Source: Martelella sp. HB161492
GTDB taxonomy: Bacteria > Pseudomonadota > Alphaproteobacteria > Rhizobiales > Rhizobiaceae
DNA: 64,000 bases
Reading direction: 5' to 3'
Assembly (NCBI RefSeq): GCF_013184775.1
Contig: NZ_JAATVV010000004.1
Coordinates: forward strand, 248,001 to 312,000
Shown here piece after piece: positions 1 through 6,791 of the stretch. The notes under the pieces are model-generated. The model made no database searches. It saw only the letters and a list, made by a program, of their open reading frames with translations, and was not told the DNA's origin. How positions within the stretch are numbered: the first letter of the stretch is position 1; each line of letters begins with the position of its first letter. A program made the translations under genes and the position numbers.

Positions 1-1639
1 GCGGCCGGTCGCCAATCACGATGCCGGCGGCATGGGTGGAAGCATGCCGATAAAGCCCCTCAATCTTCTGGGCAATGGCAAGCAGCCGCGCGACGACGGG
101 CTCCTCTTCGGCCGCTTCCTGCAATTTGGGCTCGTCTTCGATAGCCTTGGAAAGCGGCACAGGCGCCGCCGGATTATTCGGCACGAGCTTACAGATACGA
201 TCGACCTGCCCGTAAGGCATTTCCAGAACACGGCCGACATCGCGCAGGGCCGCGCGCGCCTGCAGCGAACCGAAGGTGATGATCTGCGCAACCTGCTCCC
301 GGCCGTATTTACGCTGGACATAATGAATGACCTCTTCCCGGCGCTCCTGGCAGAAGTCGATATCGAAGTCCGGCATCGAGACACGTTCCGGATTGAGAAA
401 CCGTTCGAAAAGCAGCGAAAAGCGAAGCGGATCCACATCGGTAATCGTCAGAGCATAGGCGACCAATGAGCCCGCGCCGGATCCACGCCCCGGGCCGACC
501 GGAATATCATGCTCCTTAGCCCATTTGATAAAGTCCGAAACGATCAGAAAGTAACCGGGAAATTTCATTCCCTCGATGATATCGAGCTCATATTCCAGCC
601 GTTCGAGATAGTCCTCATGACTGTGCCCCTTCGCCAGCCCGATATGGGCGATGCGGTTTTCAAGTCCCTCGCGCGCCTGGCGCCGCAATTCCGTCGCCTC
701 GGCCTTTTCAGCCTCATCCGGGTGCTCCGAAGCGCCGGTGAAGCGCGGCAGGATCGGACTGCGGGTATCAAGAACAAAACTGCAGCGCCTGGCGATTTCG
801 ACGGTATTGTCCACGGCCTCTGGCAGGTCCTCAAAGAGCGCCACCATCTCCTTCTGGCTTTTTACATAGTGGTCGGGCGTCAGACGGAAACGCGTGTCGT
901 CAGACACAATGGCATTGTGCGCCACTGCCATCAGCGCATCATGCGCTTCGAAATCATCACGGGTCGGAAAGAAAGCTTCATTTGTCGCCACCAGCGGCAA
1001 TTCATGCCGGAAGGCCAGTTCGATGACATGGCGTTCGTGATTGCGATCATAATTCCCGTGGCGCTGCAGCTCGACATAGAGCCGGTCGCCAAAAATCCGC
1101 TTCAAACGGAGCAAGCGCTCTTCCGCACGCTCGGCAGAGCCTCCGGCGATGGCCTGATCGACCGGACCACCGGAAGCCCCGGTTAAAACAATCAGCCCCT
1201 CGCAAAACTCCTCAAGCCAGCTCAGTTTCACCGACAACGCCTCATGCCCGGAACCTGAAAGATAGGCCCGACTGACGAGCGCCATCAGGTTGGCATAGCC
1301 GGCATCGTTGCTCACCAGAAACACGAGCGACGGCAATTTTACAATGACATGCGGCGCCTTGCGCTCTCCGGCCTCGCCATCTTCCATATCAACCGAAAGC
1401 TGACATCCAAGGATGGGCTGAAGTCCCTCGCCGATTGCCTTTTGTGAGAACTCAAGCGCCGAAAACAGGTTATTGGTGTCCGTAATGGCTATGGCCGGCT
1501 GCTCATCTTTCAGCGCAAGCTTGAGAATGGACTTGAGCGGCAACGCCCCTTCGAGAAGGGAATAGGCAGAATGTGTCCGCAAATGGACGAACCGGACCTT
1601 GCCTGAATGTTGTGAAGTAACCGCCATATCGTCCGTCAT
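1..1639 (-). CDS. dnaE: DNA polymerase III subunit alpha, N-terminal part (runs off the left edge)
   Basis: This is the replicative polymerase catalytic subunit. Only about 546 of an expected 1150-1170 residues lie in the window. The start at 1639 gives MTDDMAVTSQHSGK and then the PHP-domain opening RFVHLRTHSAYSLLEGA (residues 17-32). The catalytic aspartate motif PDFDIDF lies near residue 422 (plus-strand positions about 358-377), so the palm domain is intact. The visible part ends in RHASTHAAGIVIGDRP, a conserved block of the family. No frameshift is seen. Its 5' side faces the small SOS-type peptide gene at 1751-1837, which is on the same strand. I translated this gene by hand because it has no stop codon in the window. 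Confidence 0.95.
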   Translation of the reverse strand, partial: MTDDMAVTSQHSGKVRFVHLRTHSAYSLLEGALPLKSILKLALKDEQPAIAITDTNNLFSALEFSQKAIGEGLQPILGCQLSVDMEDGEAGERKAPHVIVKLPSLVFLVSNDAGYANLMALVSRAYLSGSGHEALSVKLSWLEEFCEGLIVLTGASGGPVDQAIAGGSAERAEERLLRLKRIFGDRLYVELQRHGNYDRNHERHVIELAFRHELPLVATNEAFFPTRDDFEAHDALMAVAHNAIVSDDTRFRLTPDHYVKSQKEMVALFEDLPEAVDNTVEIARRCSFVLDTRSPILPRFTGASEHPDEAEKAEATELRRQAREGLENRIAHIGLAKGHSHEDYLERLEYELDIIEGMKFPGYFLIVSDFIKWAKEHDIPVGPGRGSGAGSLVAYALTITDVDPLRFSLLFERFLNPERVSMPDFDIDFCQERREEVIHYVQRKYGREQVAQIITFGSLQARAALRDVGRVLEMPYGQVDRICKLVPNNPAAPVPLSKAIEDEPKLQEAAEEEPVVARLLAIAQKIEGLYRHASTHAAGIVIGDRP

Positions 1640-1750
1640 CCCTGCCACCATACACTTCATCCGACGCATCCACGTCAGACACCGCATCTTCGTATTTAGA
1701 CCGACTGTCAAATCGGCCGCAATGACGGAACCGGGAAATTCAGAACAAAT

Positions 1751-1837
1751 TTAGAACGAGGCCAGCACGATCGACAGGCTGGCAACAAGCAGAGCGACGG
1801 AAGTGAACGCGGCTATATCACGCAATAATTCGGTCAT
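1751..1837 (-). CDS. 28-residue membrane peptide, SidA-like candidate SOS division inhibitor
   Basis: A 28-codon frame starts at ATG 1837 and ends at TAA 1751. It encodes a short polar N-terminus (MTELLRDIAAF) followed by one hydrophobic segment of about 18 residues ending SIVLASF. The Shine-Dalgarno AGGAGG lies five bases before the ATG. Thirty-four bases upstream is a GTTC-N7-GTTC repeat (1871-1885), the alphaproteobacterial LexA operator form, between a TTGACG -35 and an A/T-rich -10. The architecture matches Caulobacter SidA, a 29-residue LexA-controlled inner-membrane protein that blocks division through FtsW/FtsN. Orthology is inferred from size, regulation and position beside dnaE, not from alignment. 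Confidence 0.72.
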   Translation of the reverse strand: MTELLRDIAAFTSVALLVASLSIVLASF

Positions 1838-1862
1838 CAGACCCTCCTGTTTTTGCTATGTT

Positions 1863-1894
1863 TATTTTATGTTCTATTTTTGTTCCTTCGTCAA
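1863..1894 (-). promoter_or_regulatory. LexA-type SOS box within a sigma70-like promoter
   Basis: The plus strand shows GTTC-TATTTTT-GTTC at 1871-1885, which is GAAC-N7-GAAC on the minus strand, the direct-repeat operator known for alphaproteobacterial LexA. On the minus strand TTGACG (1894-1889) can act as -35, and an A/T-rich -10 (CATAAA or TAAAAT) lies 17-19 bases further on. The box therefore sits between the promoter elements, where a repressor would block transcription of the peptide gene at 1751-1837. Confidence 0.72.
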
Positions 1895-2533
1895 ACGCTT
1901 TTTTGCAGCTGCCATGAAGATGCCATCAGAAGGTGTCAGCAGGAGGCGGTTCATCGCAGCCGACCATTCATCGAGAATGGGCGCCAAAGCGCTGAGATAG
2001 ATGCATAAAGTGGCGTCCGGAAGCAAAGGCCGCGGCAAGGTCCGTGTCGCGATGCAAAAGATCGAAACCGAAGATTTCCGAGAAAGCGGCATTCCCGAGA
2101 TGACATCGAAATAGAGACATCCTCCTCCGACACGCTAGCTTTCCCTGTGCCAGACGATGTTCAACATAGACCTCTCGAAAATCTGTGGTCCGACATGCGA
2201 GGCGACGGTGCAGTTTCATGACACTGAAAGACCGAAGGGATGCAACCGATCAGGTTGCAATGCAAAAGCCCTCGACACGGATGATGCTCCGAGAAGCACC
2301 GACGCTCCCGACCTCCAGCCTGATCGAAAGAATGCCCCTCAGCCCGTCGCCAGACAACGTCAGCACAAGCTGAAAAAACCTTTAGGAAAATCGACCCCAC
2401 AACCCTAGGCATAGAATCCAGGCCGCCCACCTTGCGTGCCCGCGCCGCCCAGAACAGCTCACCACGCGACCTCCATCGCCTAGATATAAATGAAATGTTC
2501 TTGAACTATATTTATGATATATCACCCTCAAAG
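1895..2533. other. Intergenic stretch without a supported gene
   Basis: Several short overlapping frames exist here on both strands, but none has a convincing start, composition or recognisable motif. Minus-strand frames between 1874 and 2219 switch phase near 2000 and could be a decayed gene, but I recognise nothing in them. The right end (2480-2530) becomes A/T-rich and leads into the terminator of the next gene. Confidence 0.5.
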
Positions 2534-2566
2534 CAAAAAACCTGCTCCATTGACGGGAGCAGGTTT
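2534..2566 (-). terminator. Rho-independent terminator of the ribbon-helix-helix gene
   Basis: An 11-bp perfect stem, AAACCTGCTCC (2538-2548) pairing with GGAGCAGGTTT (2556-2566), has a 7-base loop. Read on the minus strand the stem is followed by a T run (2540-2535). It lies about 20 bases after the stop codon of the gene at 2588-2863. Confidence 0.85.
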
Positions 2567-2587
2567 CGGCAATGAAGCTTTTATGCT

Positions 2588-2863
2588 TCAGAGGTGTTTC
2601 TTGGACCCATCCTGGTCCTCATACTGATCACGGAAGCGATCAATGATCGTCATCAAAGCTTCACGCTTGGATTGACACGCCGTTTCACGCCCGTATTTTT
2701 CAATAAAATCGGCTTGATCGGTCGTTATCACGGTCGAGAGGCTGGTCAACCCACGCTCTTTGAAAGATCTTCTGAAATTCCGCATATAACGGTTCCAGGC
2801 AGCGCGCTCTTCATCCGAACGCTCGATTTTTCTGGACCTGCTATCCAATTCACTATGGCTCAT
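2588..2863 (-). CDS. Hypothetical protein with ribbon-helix-helix-like C-terminal half
   Basis: The 91-residue protein is not a family I can name. Residues 1-38 are charged and probably helical. Residues 42-48 (LSTVITT) look like a beta strand, residues 49-60 (DQADFIEKYGRE) like helix A, and residues 65-80 (SKREALMTIIDRFRDQ) like helix B. That order is typical of MetJ/Arc-type ribbon-helix-helix DNA-binding proteins. The start at 2863 is preferred because AGGGGG lies seven bases upstream; a GTG at 2923 would add 20 residues but has no such site. The gene has its own terminator and lies beside an AT-rich stretch, which suggests acquired DNA. The DNA-binding role is inferred from pattern only. 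Confidence 0.6.
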   Translation of the reverse strand: MSHSELDSRSRKIERSDEERAAWNRYMRNFRRSFKERGLTSLSTVITTDQADFIEKYGRETACQSKREALMTIIDRFRDQYEDQDGSKKHL

Positions 2864-3190
2864 TCGATACCCCCTATCTAGTTTGAGCGCAATGTCGTCG
2901 TTCAACATTGTTCTGCCGTCCACGACGAAATCAACTATATTACAATATTCTACAATTTAAAGCAAAAATAGTGATTTTTTTAAGGCAATAATTACATATA
3001 ATTGGTATAACAAATCTCGTAATCTAAATAATTACAAGATAATGCAGATAAAAATAAAAAAAATTATGATAATATTACTGAAACGGTCGAGAATGAACGT
3101 CTCGAAATAACCGCAAAAACTCTAAGTAAATATTCCTAATTTGGAACGTTCGACTTTCAGATAATCAATTCAGGGTTGCTTTCAGCTTGT
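2864..3190. other. AT-rich islet upstream of the ribbon-helix-helix gene
   Basis: From about 2930 to 3130 the base composition is strikingly A/T-rich compared with the GC-rich surroundings, with runs such as TTTTTTT and AAAAATAAAAAAAATTATG. An inverted repeat, GTAAT-N7-ATTAC, lies at 3019-3035 and could be an operator. No coding frame is supported. The islet probably carries the promoter of the gene at 2588-2863. Confidence 0.6.
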
Positions 3191-3447
3191 CCCCATCAAA
3201 AGCGCAGCCTTATGTGGCCTCGCCCATCGCCACATCTACTTTTGGCGGGTTCTCGGGGTTTTCACCCCGGATAGCCCAGGCCGAACAGTCCGAACCTGCA
3301 ACCCTATTGGATGAAAAGATGAAAGGAAAAAATATTTTTGGTTGCATCCTGTCAGGAGCGCCAGCCACGGAAGCGCGCAGCCGGCTTTCGGGTGAAAGCC
3401 GGCCTGCCGAAACCGCGAAATGCTATCATCGAATTTGCAGGCCTATT
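3191..3447. other. Intergenic region downstream of lolD with two hairpins
   Basis: There is no supported gene. A short hairpin CGGGG/CCCCG lies at 3254-3269. A perfect 10-bp stem GCCGGCTTTC/GAAAGCCGGC lies at 3380-3403, about 45 bases after the lolD stop on the minus strand. It lacks a U tract, so it may stabilise the mRNA end rather than act as a classical terminator. Confidence 0.5.
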
Positions 3448-4128
3448 TCAGGCGGCGACCACAAGGCCATCCTGCAGCGTGACCCGGCGGTCCATGCGGC
3501 CGGCAAGATCGAGATTGTGTGTTGCGATCAGCGCCGCAAGGCCTGACTGGCGCACCAGCGCCTCGAGCGCCTCGAACACATAGCCAGCCGTACCAGGATC
3601 GAGATTGCCGGTCGGCTCATCAGCCAGAAGCAGGCTCGGTGCGTTGGCAACGGCACGGGCAATGGCAACCCGCTGCTGCTCACCGCCGGAGAGCTCTGCC
3701 GGACGATGCTCACCACGATGGGCAATTTTCAGGTAGTCGAGCATCTGCTCCGCCCGCTCCTTGGCATCATTGCGCGAAAGGCCGGCAATCAACTGCGGAA
3801 GCATGATGTTCTCGAGTGCCGAGAATTCCGGCAGCAGATGATGGAACTGATAAACGAAGCCAATATCGTTGCGCCGCAGTGCCGTACGCTCATCATCGGT
3901 CAGATCGGCCGCATTGCGACCGTTGATGATCACCTCGCCAGCGGTTGGGTGCTCGAGCAGACCGGCAATCTGCAGCAGCGTCGATTTTCCGGTGCCAGAC
4001 GGGGCAACCAGCGCCACCATCTCACCGGGTTTCATCGTGAAACTGGCGCCTTTCAGCACATGAAGCAGCGATTCACCCTGCCCGTAATCCTGGCGAATGT
4101 TTTTCAGGACGAGTGCTGGTCTGGCCAT
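3448..4128 (-). CDS. lolD: Lipoprotein-releasing system ATP-binding protein
   Basis: LolD energises the inner-membrane LolCDE complex that extracts outer-membrane lipoproteins and hands them to LolA. From the 4128 start the protein has 226 residues, the usual size. The Walker A site is APSGTGKST (about residues 42-50), with alanine in place of the usual first glycine. The signature [14 protein letters not shown] and the Walker B region LLLADEPT followed by GNLD are intact, and THN supplies the switch histidine. ATG 4128 has AGAGG upstream. A longer start at 4155 would overlap the permease stop by 8 bp and lacks a ribosome site. It lies directly downstream of the permease gene. Confidence 0.93.
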
Positions 4129-4147
4129 TGCGCGCACCTCTTTTCGA

Positions 4148-5449
4148 TTATTCATAACGCAGTGCCTGCACGGGATCGAGGCGCGAGGCCCGCCATGCCG
4201 GGAAGATCGTTGCGATGAAGGACAGCGTCAGCGCCATGACAACCACCGTCACGGTTTCCCCCCAGCTCATCTCGGCCGGCAGCGTGCTCAGGAAATAAAG
4301 CTGCGGATCGAACAGCACAGTCCCGGAAATCCATGAGAAGAACTCACGGATCGATTCAATATTGAGGCAGACCACAACGCCGAGGATCACGCCGGCAAAT
4401 GTGCCGACCACGCCGATCGCAGCCCCCGTCATGAAGAATATCCGCATGATCGCCCCGGACGTCGCCCCCATGGTGCGAAGAATGGCGATGTCGGGGCCCT
4501 TGTCTTTCACCAGCATGATCAGGCCGGAAATGATGTTGAGCGCGGCAACGATCACGATCAGCGTCAGGATCATGAACATCACATTGCGCTCAACCTCGAG
4601 TGCGGTGAAAAAGGTCCGGTTGTTCTGCCGCCAGTCCGACATCAGCACATCCTCACCGGCCGCACTGCGAAGATCCGGAATGACCTGATCGACCTCATCA
4701 GGATTCGTCAGAAAAACCTCAATGCTCTGCACCGTGTCGCCGGCGTTGAAATAGGCCTGGGCCTGCTCGAGCGGCATGAACACGATCGAAGCGTCATATT
4801 CCGACATGCCGATCTCGAAGATGCCGGAAATCGTATAGGCCTTCACCCGCGGATTGACGCCCATGGGCGTAACATCGCCTTCCGGAGAGATCAGCGTGAT
4901 CTTGTCTCCGACATAAAGACCAAGACTTGCCGCCATCCGCGAGCCGATCAACACGCCATTGCCAGCGGCATAGCCGACCATATTGCCTTCAATGATGTGA
5001 TCTGAAACCGTTGTAAGCTTGGTCAGATCCTCCGGCCGGATGCCACGCACCAGCGCGCCCGACCCTGCACCCTGCTTGCCGGAGACAAGCGCCTGCCCCT
5101 CGACCAGCGGAAAGGCCAGTTTCACGCCCTTGACCGCTTCGAGCCGCTTTGAAAGTGCATCATAATCCTTGAAAGGATCACCGGCCGGCAGCATGACCAC
5201 ATGACCGTTAATGCCGAGAATACGGGTTACAAGCTCCGAGCGGAACCCATTCATCACCGCCATGACGATGATGAGTGTGGCAACGCCGAGCATGATGCCG
5301 ATGAAGGAAAAGCCCGCAATAACAGAAATGAAGGCTTCCTTGCGGCGCGAGCGCAGATAGCGCCAGGCGACCATGCGCTCAAACACGGAGAAGGGCCGCG
5401 CGGTCGGCGGAAGATCGGGCAGTGCCTCTTGCGTCTCGGTCGCGGCCAT
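4148..5449 (-). CDS. lolC: Lipoprotein-releasing ABC transporter permease (LolC/LolE family)
   Basis: This 433-residue inner-membrane subunit of the lipoprotein exporter has the family layout. A cytoplasmic N-terminus with [10 protein letters not shown] precedes a first membrane segment at about 42-66. A large periplasmic domain follows (about 70-290), then the FtsX-like block of three membrane segments (about 300-430). Only one permease gene is present next to lolD, as is common in alphaproteobacteria, where one protein may serve in place of LolC plus LolE, so the C/E label is a convention. It is co-directional with proS upstream (16 bp gap) and lolD downstream. Confidence 0.92.
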
Positions 5450-5465
5450 TCAGAATGTCTCCCTG

Positions 5466-6791
5466 TCAGCCCTGAGTAAGCTTTGCGATCGCCGCCTCAA
5501 GCGTCATTGTCTCACGTTCGCCGGTCTTGCGGTCCTTGATCTCGACCTCACCATTGGCAACGCCGCGCGGCCCGACAACCACCTGAACAGGAATACCTAT
5601 CAGATCAGCGGTAGCAAACTTCGCGCCGGCGCGCTCATCGGTGTCATCAAGAAGCACGTCCTTGCCGGCATTGCCAAGCGCTTCGTAAAGCCTGTCGGCA
5701 ACACCGTCACAGGCACCATCACCTGCCTTCATGTTGATGATCACGACGTCGAAAGGCGCAACCGACTGAGGCCAGATGATTCCGGCATCATCATGTGATG
5801 CTTCGACAATGGCGGGAACAAGGCGGGTTGGCCCAATACCATAAGAACCCATATGGACAGCGTGTTCCTTGCCATCAGGCCCCTGAACCTTCGCACCCAT
5901 CGGCTCCGAATATTTCGTGCCGAAATAGAAGATGTGGCCAACTTCGATACCGCGCGCCGACAGGCGTTCAGCATCGGGAATAGTGTTGAATGCCTCTGCA
6001 TCATGCATTTCGTCGGTCGCAGCATAAAGCGAGGTCCACTGGTCGAAGACGCCCTGAAGCGTTTCGACGCTGTCAAAATCGATATCAGCCGGCGGAATGT
6101 CGAATTTGACGAAATCGCGATGGCAGAACACCTCGGATTCACCCGTATCGGCCAGAATGATGAATTCATGGCTGAGATTGCCGCCAATCGGACCGGTATC
6201 GGCGCGCATCGGAATGGCTCGCAGACCAAGACGGTCAAACGTGCGCAGATAGGCCGTGAACATCTTGCGGTAGGAATGCTCTGCCCCCTCACGCGTCAGG
6301 TCGAAGGAATAGGCATCCTTCATCATGAATTCGCGCGAACGCATGGTGCCGAAGCGCGGACGGATCTCGTCACGGAACTTCCACTGGATATGGTAGAGGT
6401 TGAGCGGAATCTGCTTGTAGGACTTCACATAGGAGCGAAAGATCTCGGTGATCATCTCCTCATTGGTCGGTCCGTAGAGCATGGGGCGCTCCTGCCGGTC
6501 GACGATACGCAGCATTTCCTTGCCATAGGCCTCATAGCGGCCGCTCTCCATCCAGAGATCGGCGGACTGCATGGTCGGCATCAGCAATTCCACCGCGCCG
6601 GAGCGGTTCTGCTCTTCGCGGATGATGTTGTTGACCTTGTCCAGCACGCGCTTGCCCAGCGGCAGCCAGGAATAGATGCCCTGGGAATGCTGACGGATCA
6701 TGCCGGCCCGAAGCATGAAGCGATGAGAGACGATTTCGGCTTCCTTGGGCGTTTCCTTCAGGATCGGCAGGAAATAACGGGAAAGGCGCAT
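5466..6791 (-). CDS. proS: Proline--tRNA ligase, short alphaproteobacterial type
   Basis: Prolyl-tRNA synthetase charges tRNA-Pro in the cytoplasm. The 441-residue form from [13 protein letters not shown] lacks the large insertion (editing) domain of the E. coli enzyme, which is typical of Rhizobiales. Class II motifs are visible: [11 protein letters not shown], motif 2 with [17 protein letters not shown], and motif 3 near [16 protein letters not shown]. The C-terminal anticodon-binding domain starts near [11 protein letters not shown]. An ATG at 6806 would add five residues (MKAVS); neither start has a strong ribosome site, and I chose the one that matches relatives as I know them. It heads the proS-lolC-lolD run. 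Confidence 0.95.

Follow-up and report, generated by a model that had tools for sequence, protein, structure and literature searches.

A remote SidA-like membrane peptide with a LexA-type box, upstream of dnaE in Martelella and related genomes

SidA of Caulobacter is described as a 29-residue inner-membrane protein and as the main SOS division inhibitor; it interacts with FtsW and FtsN and can be overcome by altered forms of FtsW or FtsI (PMC4211646). A Caulobacter lexA deletion is reported to filament because of sidA (PMC12700426). PMC4211646 also describes a small membrane inhibitor named DidA in Caulobacter, whose target following DNA damage is the FtsW/I/N complex. In Caulobacter, dnaE has been cited as an SOS gene, and in alphaproteobacteria with several chromosomes it is again found SOS-regulated by a comparative LexA study of 2012 (PMC3323433). 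The literature that we searched (the founding SidA paper and the 2004 LexA paper lie outside it) names neither SidA nor any other SOS division inhibitor in rhizobia, and contains no SOS expression data for the rhizobial peptide described here.

We analysed a stretch of 64,000 nt from Martelella sp. HB161492 (hereafter the window; positions are counted from its first letter), in which a sequence-only reading had pointed to a SidA-like frame of 28 residues beside dnaE.

The peptide gene and its neighbours in the window

The frame lies on the minus strand (1751..1837), starts with ATG and encodes a SidA-type hydrophobic peptide of 28 residues, MTELLRDIAAFTSVALLVASLSIVLASF, assigned by ORF translation and family comparison. 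A ribosome-binding site AGGAGG, read directly from the sequence (1843..1848, minus strand), stands 5 nt from the ATG. Further upstream on the minus strand are a LexA-type box of the pattern GTTC-N7-GTTC (1871..1885; GAACAAAAATAGAAC on the minus strand, GTTCTATTTTTGTTC on the plus strand), assigned by pattern scan and comparison, and a −35-like TTGACG (1889..1894), assigned by hand reading and family spacing; an approximate, AT-rich −10 region, CATAAAAT (1864..1871, minus strand), is placed from spacing. By these by-hand positions the box (1885-1871) begins 4 nt past the TTGAC of TTGACG and ends at the AT-rich −10-like stretch. The frame, AGGAGG, TTGACG and GTTC-N7-GTTC of the sequence-only reading are all confirmed at 1751-1894 of the minus strand, and its single membrane segment agrees with Kyte-Doolittle hydropathy (best 15-residue mean 2.54), by which the peptide is predicted to be a short inner-membrane helix.

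The peptide was also said to lie directly before dnaE on the same strand, and it does: its stop codon ends at 1751 and the likely ATG of dnaE is at 1639, with 111 nt between them (in-frame alternative starts exist upstream, e.g. at 1660). The 5′ part of dnaE, the gene for the replicative DNA polymerase III alpha subunit, occupies 1..1639 of the minus strand and runs past the window edge; it was identified as an ORF with the Pfam domains PHP and DNA_pol3_alpha, and the best named matches of its product are from Shinella and Sinorhizobium (75-76% over 97% of 546 residues). Upstream of the peptide, all on the minus strand, are a 111-residue frame (2588..2923, ORF), a lolD-like ABC ATPase gene (3448..4155), which is a frequent upstream neighbour of the peptide, and a gene for a lolC-like permease (4148..5449), the latter two assigned by ORF and Pfam and ordered as in S. 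meliloti; further upstream in the same orientation comes a gene for a class II tRNA synthetase, which we take for proS. Neither Pfam nor NCBIfam gives a convincing match for the 111-residue frame; it separates the lolD-like gene from the peptide and borders a stretch of 38% G+C (2750-3249), while most of 1000-4499 is at 50-61%. A second GTTC-N7-GTTC (1743..1757, minus strand, by pattern scan) overlaps the stop codon of the peptide; it is found at the same place in one relative (G007) and is absent from the other upstream loci compared, and may be a chance match or a second operator for dnaE.

Searches with the window peptide alone gave no match in Pfam, NCBIfam or a plasmid collection. The box by itself is at chance level (two matches in the window, 1.79 expected) and a sigma-70 consensus scan of 1500-2200 called no promoter, −10 included, so that the case rests on comparison between genomes and the promoter assignment on conservation.

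Conservation of the peptide and of its LexA-type box

A search with the peptide as query found it in all 12 other genomes of the genus that were searched (worst E 0.0017), and a LexA-type box is present in the eight of these loci that were read (8/8). At E<=10 the same single-peptide search reached five of 12 genomes that belong to the family but not to the genus (three matches below 0.001, one at 0.07 and one at 1.1); 16 genomes from outside the family but within the order gave no match. At family level we compared 121 genomes, the window's own included, in 115 of which DnaE was located. About 1 kb ahead of dnaE was read in 110 genomes (0.4 kb only in G079), candidate peptides being scored by a matrix in which the box was not used, and the peptide lies within ~1 kb of dnaE in 65 of these 110 loci. 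The other 56 genomes (45 read at dnaE and without the peptide there, five not read and six without a DnaE match) were searched as whole genomes with a profile: 46 contain the peptide at E<0.01 and 10 do not, and dnaE follows the peptide in six of the 46. The peptide is common to 111 of the 121 genomes of one family (65 near dnaE plus 46 by profile), yet it is unannotated and the rhizobial group has no Pfam model.

Of the 10 genomes without the peptide at E<0.01, seven belong to a set of eight family genomes no larger than 2.0 Mb (G017, G018, G072, G100, G104, G118, G120 and G138); the one small genome that keeps it, G100, has it with a box. The peptide is missing in three of the 113 larger genomes (G071, which is 76% complete, G109 and G116). 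Loss of the checkpoint in small, host-bound genomes would produce this pattern, host-bound life being assumed here from genome size.

The pattern of substitutions is that of a protein. Over 201 close pairs, which share sequences and are not independent, pN/pS is 0.20, and the differences at codon positions 1, 2 and 3 (same non-independent pairs) number 19038, 9682 and 24035, respectively. Among 92 distinct 28-mers, D7 and F17 are each kept in 91, and every one has A or S at position 10; when eight angles were tried, the conservation moment peaked at 100 degrees, the value expected for a single helix face. Judged from these comparisons, the 28-residue frame is a protein-coding gene, selected as protein.

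In 59 of the 65 dnaE-linked copies an exact GAAC-N7-GAAC precedes the ATG by no more than 95 nt; the remaining ones have one mismatch (four copies), two mismatches (one copy) or a contig end that cuts the locus (one copy). The conserved short frame plus box ahead of dnaE that the sequence-only reading had proposed looking for is present in much of the family. The 45 dnaE loci without the peptide (about 1 kb each; G079 with only 0.4 kb upstream) have no forward box at all, a difference with a Fisher p of 1e-24 that is not corrected for relatedness; in one of these 45 genomes, G112, the peptide and a box are found ~1.4 kb upstream of dnaE. 47 profile-found copies were read (those of the 46 genomes and a second copy in G087), and a box lies within 110 nt in 42 of them (42 of the 46 genomes). 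41 of the 47 have no dnaE after them in the stretch read, and 37 of these 41 keep the box; if G112, G102 (without a DnaE match) and the second copy in G087 are set aside, 38 copies lie away from the dnaE of their genome, 35 of them with a box. A lolD-like motif is found upstream of 23 of the 41; it was thus often dnaE that moved, the peptide keeping its place beside lolD. The second copy in G087, an RD-motif peptide (MRDFLRDLLALAAMSGFLAAAAIWLSQVPA; L219, G087:C1:2112591-2114391), has no box within 110 nt, and a boxed copy is also present in that genome.

Two explanations that tie the locus to dnaE can be weighed against these counts. The box might serve dnaE itself, the small frame being incidental, as the citations of dnaE as SOS-regulated in Caulobacter and in the 2012 comparative study (PMC3323433) would suggest; the counts contradict this (0 of 45 boxed dnaE loci without the peptide vs 59 of 65 with it), the box accompanies the peptide elsewhere, and we consider the explanation extremely unlikely. 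Alternatively, the frame might regulate dnaE as an upstream ORF or through a leader peptide. It does precede dnaE in 65 of 110 family loci, and the authors of the S. meliloti Ribo-seq study PMC10117765, who discuss uORFs, propose such a role for some 5′-UTR sORFs and name sORF25 in the 5′-UTR of dnaE1; but linkage to dnaE is not consistent (41 of 47 profile-found copies are without dnaE next to them, mostly with the box kept), the amino-acid sequence is conserved (pN/pS as above), no terminator-like hairpin is found in 1500-2200 and Rfam has no match in window 1-6000, which makes a leader peptide very unlikely, if slightly less so than a box for dnaE. We favor the reading in which the box, LexA-type by its sequence, belongs to the peptide and not to dnaE, because it is absent from the dnaE loci that lack the peptide and present in 37 of 41 copies away from dnaE. 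This suggests that the LexA site credited to dnaE belongs to sidA, dnaE being at most a downstream passenger.

The position of the box within the promoter is conserved as well. An exact box stands 10-70 nt ahead of the peptide ATG in 56 family loci; TTGA starts 9-11 nt ahead of the box in 39 of these and TTGAC in 36, a spacing from which it follows that the box occupies the promoter spacer; the placement of the box between −35 and −10 in the sequence-only reading holds up in this comparison. The genera represented by G045, G147, G111, G080, G107, G069, G055 and G129 have no TTGA ahead of the box, and in most of these only a short distance separates box and start codon, suggesting that the promoter is laid out differently there.

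The window genome contains 142 boxes, vs 74 for a reversed control pattern, and 13 boxed stretches, picked by eye from the 142, were read. Boxes precede lexA, a dinB-like gene and a comM-like gene, whose box is letter for letter that of the peptide; one lies between ssb and a UvrA-like frame, and another stands before an imuB-like frame and may overlap the end of an imuA-like frame. These names are based on Pfam for LexA, IMS, ChlI and SSB, while ComM, UvrA, ImuA and ImuB were named by eye; the UvrA-like fragment beside the boxed ssb has no Pfam match. A glyoxalase/bleomycin-resistance-like gene (L237, G000:C12:132300-133200) has a box at its start, GTTCTTTATTTGTTC, with the letters of the ssb box, and is possibly an SOS gene of its own.

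In S. meliloti Ak57, MADFVRDLAAFASMSLFIVSISVIALGL is the one hydrophobic small ATG/GTG frame listed before dnaE, and it is accompanied by two boxes in tandem; the PLSDB gene table of Ak57, which is incomplete, lists nothing between the lolD-like gene and dnaE. A Ribo-seq study of S. meliloti reports sORF25 as a novel translated frame in the 5′-UTR of dnaE1 (PMC10117765), and MADFVRDLAAFASMSLFIVSISVIALGL is probably this frame. The main text of that paper mentions neither LexA nor SOS. Three sequences filed as plasmids (L278, which is CP090106.1, L279 and L280) are 3.5-4.6 Mb long and contain a dnaE that closely resembles dnaE1; they have the look of chromosomes or fusions, and the order lolC-lolD-dnaE is annotated in CP090106.1.

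Beyond the family, the frame is also conserved in part of the order sample. In the order and class samples the box helped to pick ORFs, and the boxes found there are therefore left out of the evidence. A class-wide search with a mixed profile (A3) matched 13 of 289 genomes at E<=0.01: besides the window genome, seven have a frame with an exact box, one (L286) has a frame before dnaE and no box, three look like chance, and one (L290) is an incomplete stretch that we left unjudged. Given this mixed outcome, the distribution outside the two orders is uncertain. NF033228.1, the NCBI model for SidA, reaches seven of the 34 rows of A3, which is the number of Caulobacteraceae-group rows in it. Low Pfam matches of other members to PsaJ (best 0.0013, two of 34) and MrpF (0.028, one of 34) were rejected as chance similarity between hydrophobic helices.

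Relation to Caulobacter SidA

Four Caulobacter genomes, picked through their S-layer protein (C. crescentus is not among them), all have a frame of 29 residues with a LexA-type box ~0.15 kb before dnaE. One such 29-mer is SidA according to NF033228.1 (E 6.4e-21, 74 bits, cut-off 35). Because this model recognizes the 29-mer before dnaE, the sidA-dnaE neighborhood is confirmed for these Caulobacter species, and the tentative statement in the sequence-only reading that sidA adjoins dnaE in Caulobacter proves right in the four genomes examined. In the Caulobacteraceae group as a whole (27 further genomes plus these four), a SidA-type frame precedes dnaE in 29 of 31 loci, and several of the peptides have RD in place of RE and so resemble the rhizobial peptides.

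The two groups are distant in sequence. The window peptide is not matched by NF033228.1 at E<=10, which leaves it under the SidA equivalog cut-off of 35 bits; the model exceeds that cut-off in none of 101 order-sample genomes and in one of 14 control genomes (presumably Caulobacter vibrioides), and a Caulobacteraceae-group member with RD also stays below it (30.9 bits). In the reverse direction, the four Caulobacter genomes, searched whole with a rhizobial profile (A1), yielded no sidA at E<=10. The window peptide is thus no member of NF033228.1 as that model is drawn, but a remote homologue.

Homology was assessed with shuffled sequences. With an HMM of 112 family peptides, two Caulobacter SidA sequences score 15.9 and 15.6 bits, values that none of 1000 full and none of 1000 local shuffles of either sequence attains. 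The 13 order-level peptides tested score 17-35 bits, with at most two of 1000 shuffles reaching their scores, and bridge the groups; with an HMM made from the order-level peptides, the score of one Caulobacter SidA is attained by nine of its 1000 local shuffles. At class level one candidate (G208) passes the shuffle test (0 and 0 of 1000) and another (G203) is marginal (10 and 6); two others, G240 and G256, fail it and were dropped. The alignment to Caulobacter SidA that the sequence-only reading had called for was made profile against profile and gives a probability of 93.9% over columns 1-18, with a score of 27.6 that lies above all of 600 column shuffles (maxima 18.7 and 21.1 in two sets of 300). 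The 21 Caulobacteraceae-group peptides in this comparison include 18 from an HMM-ranked list, which favors a match, and three from Caulobacter sp. that were picked by position and length.

The similarity to SidA exceeds what composition would give, and the shuffle tests argue for homology, albeit remote. We consider the gene to be a divergent homologue of Caulobacter sidA and most likely its orthologue, where orthology rests on position because 28 residues are too few for a tree. The SidA-like identity first proposed from size, membrane segment and LexA-type control is supported, as a remote one and at the level of sequence, by the shuffle tests, the box and the shared position at dnaE.

Homology to SidA also bears on whether the peptide might be an SOS membrane peptide of the TisB or DinQ kind, which would depolarize the membrane or promote dormancy without binding the divisome. 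TisB and DinQ are both described as SOS-induced inner-membrane peptides, and size class and LexA-type box are alike; but the homology is to SidA (TisB and DinQ themselves were likened by description), and the Rfam search of window 1-6000 shows no RNA, though a lineage-specific antisense RNA would escape it. We regard such a function as unlikely, if less so than a leader peptide.

A possible mechanism and comparison with known systems

A remote SidA homologue that acts as an SOS-induced brake on septal FtsW is, in our judgment, a highly probable reading of the peptide, the block of division being a step that we infer. The gene, its conservation, the layout of its LexA-type promoter, its SidA homology and its shared position are taken from the comparisons above, and LexA control of sidA and the interaction with FtsW and FtsN are carried over by analogy from the Caulobacter literature. 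In an undamaged cell, LexA would be bound between −35 and −10 and the promoter of the peptide would be shut. DNA damage would lead to RecA-driven cleavage of LexA and release the promoter, and the peptide would insert into the membrane as one helix with its N-terminus inside. Its conserved face, [RKQ]-[DE]-x-x-[AS]-[LF]-x-S-x-x-x-F, would contact the septal FtsW/FtsI/FtsN complex and hold it inactive, so that division would be delayed until repair; read-through from the same promoter may carry dnaE as well.

The FtsW protein of the window genome can be compared with this model. Mutation of FtsW at F145 or A246 is reported to suppress SidA in Caulobacter (PMC4211646); the two residues are found at those numbers in the FtsW of a Caulobacter sp., and the window genome's FtsW has the same letters, a weak point given that 179 of 381 FtsW residues are identical. 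The window genome has one FtsW/RodA-type protein vs two in the Caulobacter sp. genome; a SidA-type brake would thus have just this one enzyme to act on. Rhizobia grow from the pole.

It is probable, though a step less so than the brake itself, that SidA is an ancient SOS division checkpoint of Alphaproteobacteria which pre-dates the split of Caulobacterales and Hyphomicrobiales in the order lolD-sidA-dnaE and kept its box where dnaE moved; rhizobia would brake their single FtsW/RodA-type enzyme with it, and both the LexA site that earlier regulon catalogues credit to dnaE and sORF25 would be sidA. If the peptide is SidA-like in action, the checkpoint becomes directly testable in a laboratory symbiont, ~100 natural variants of an FtsW-directed peptide are to hand, and sidA, as the likely owner, takes over the LexA site from dnaE.

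Among described small membrane proteins, TisB, DinQ, YneA and SosA are SOS-induced too and are functional analogues by description. DidA, likened by description as well, differs in that it is SOS-independent and driven by DriD. Caulobacter SidA (NF033228.1, 29 residues) is the system with which most can be compared. The rhizobial peptide differs from it in the C-terminal half (W19-M20 in Caulobacter), the alignment covering residues 1-18, in lying away from dnaE in many family genomes and in staying below the NCBI cut-off. The two are alike in length (28 vs 29 residues), in having one hydrophobic segment, in the common pattern [RKQ][DE]..[AS][LF].S...F[VIL], and in a LexA-type box and a place before dnaE; in one of the four Caulobacter loci (L186) a lolD-like motif, recognized by eye, is found upstream as well.
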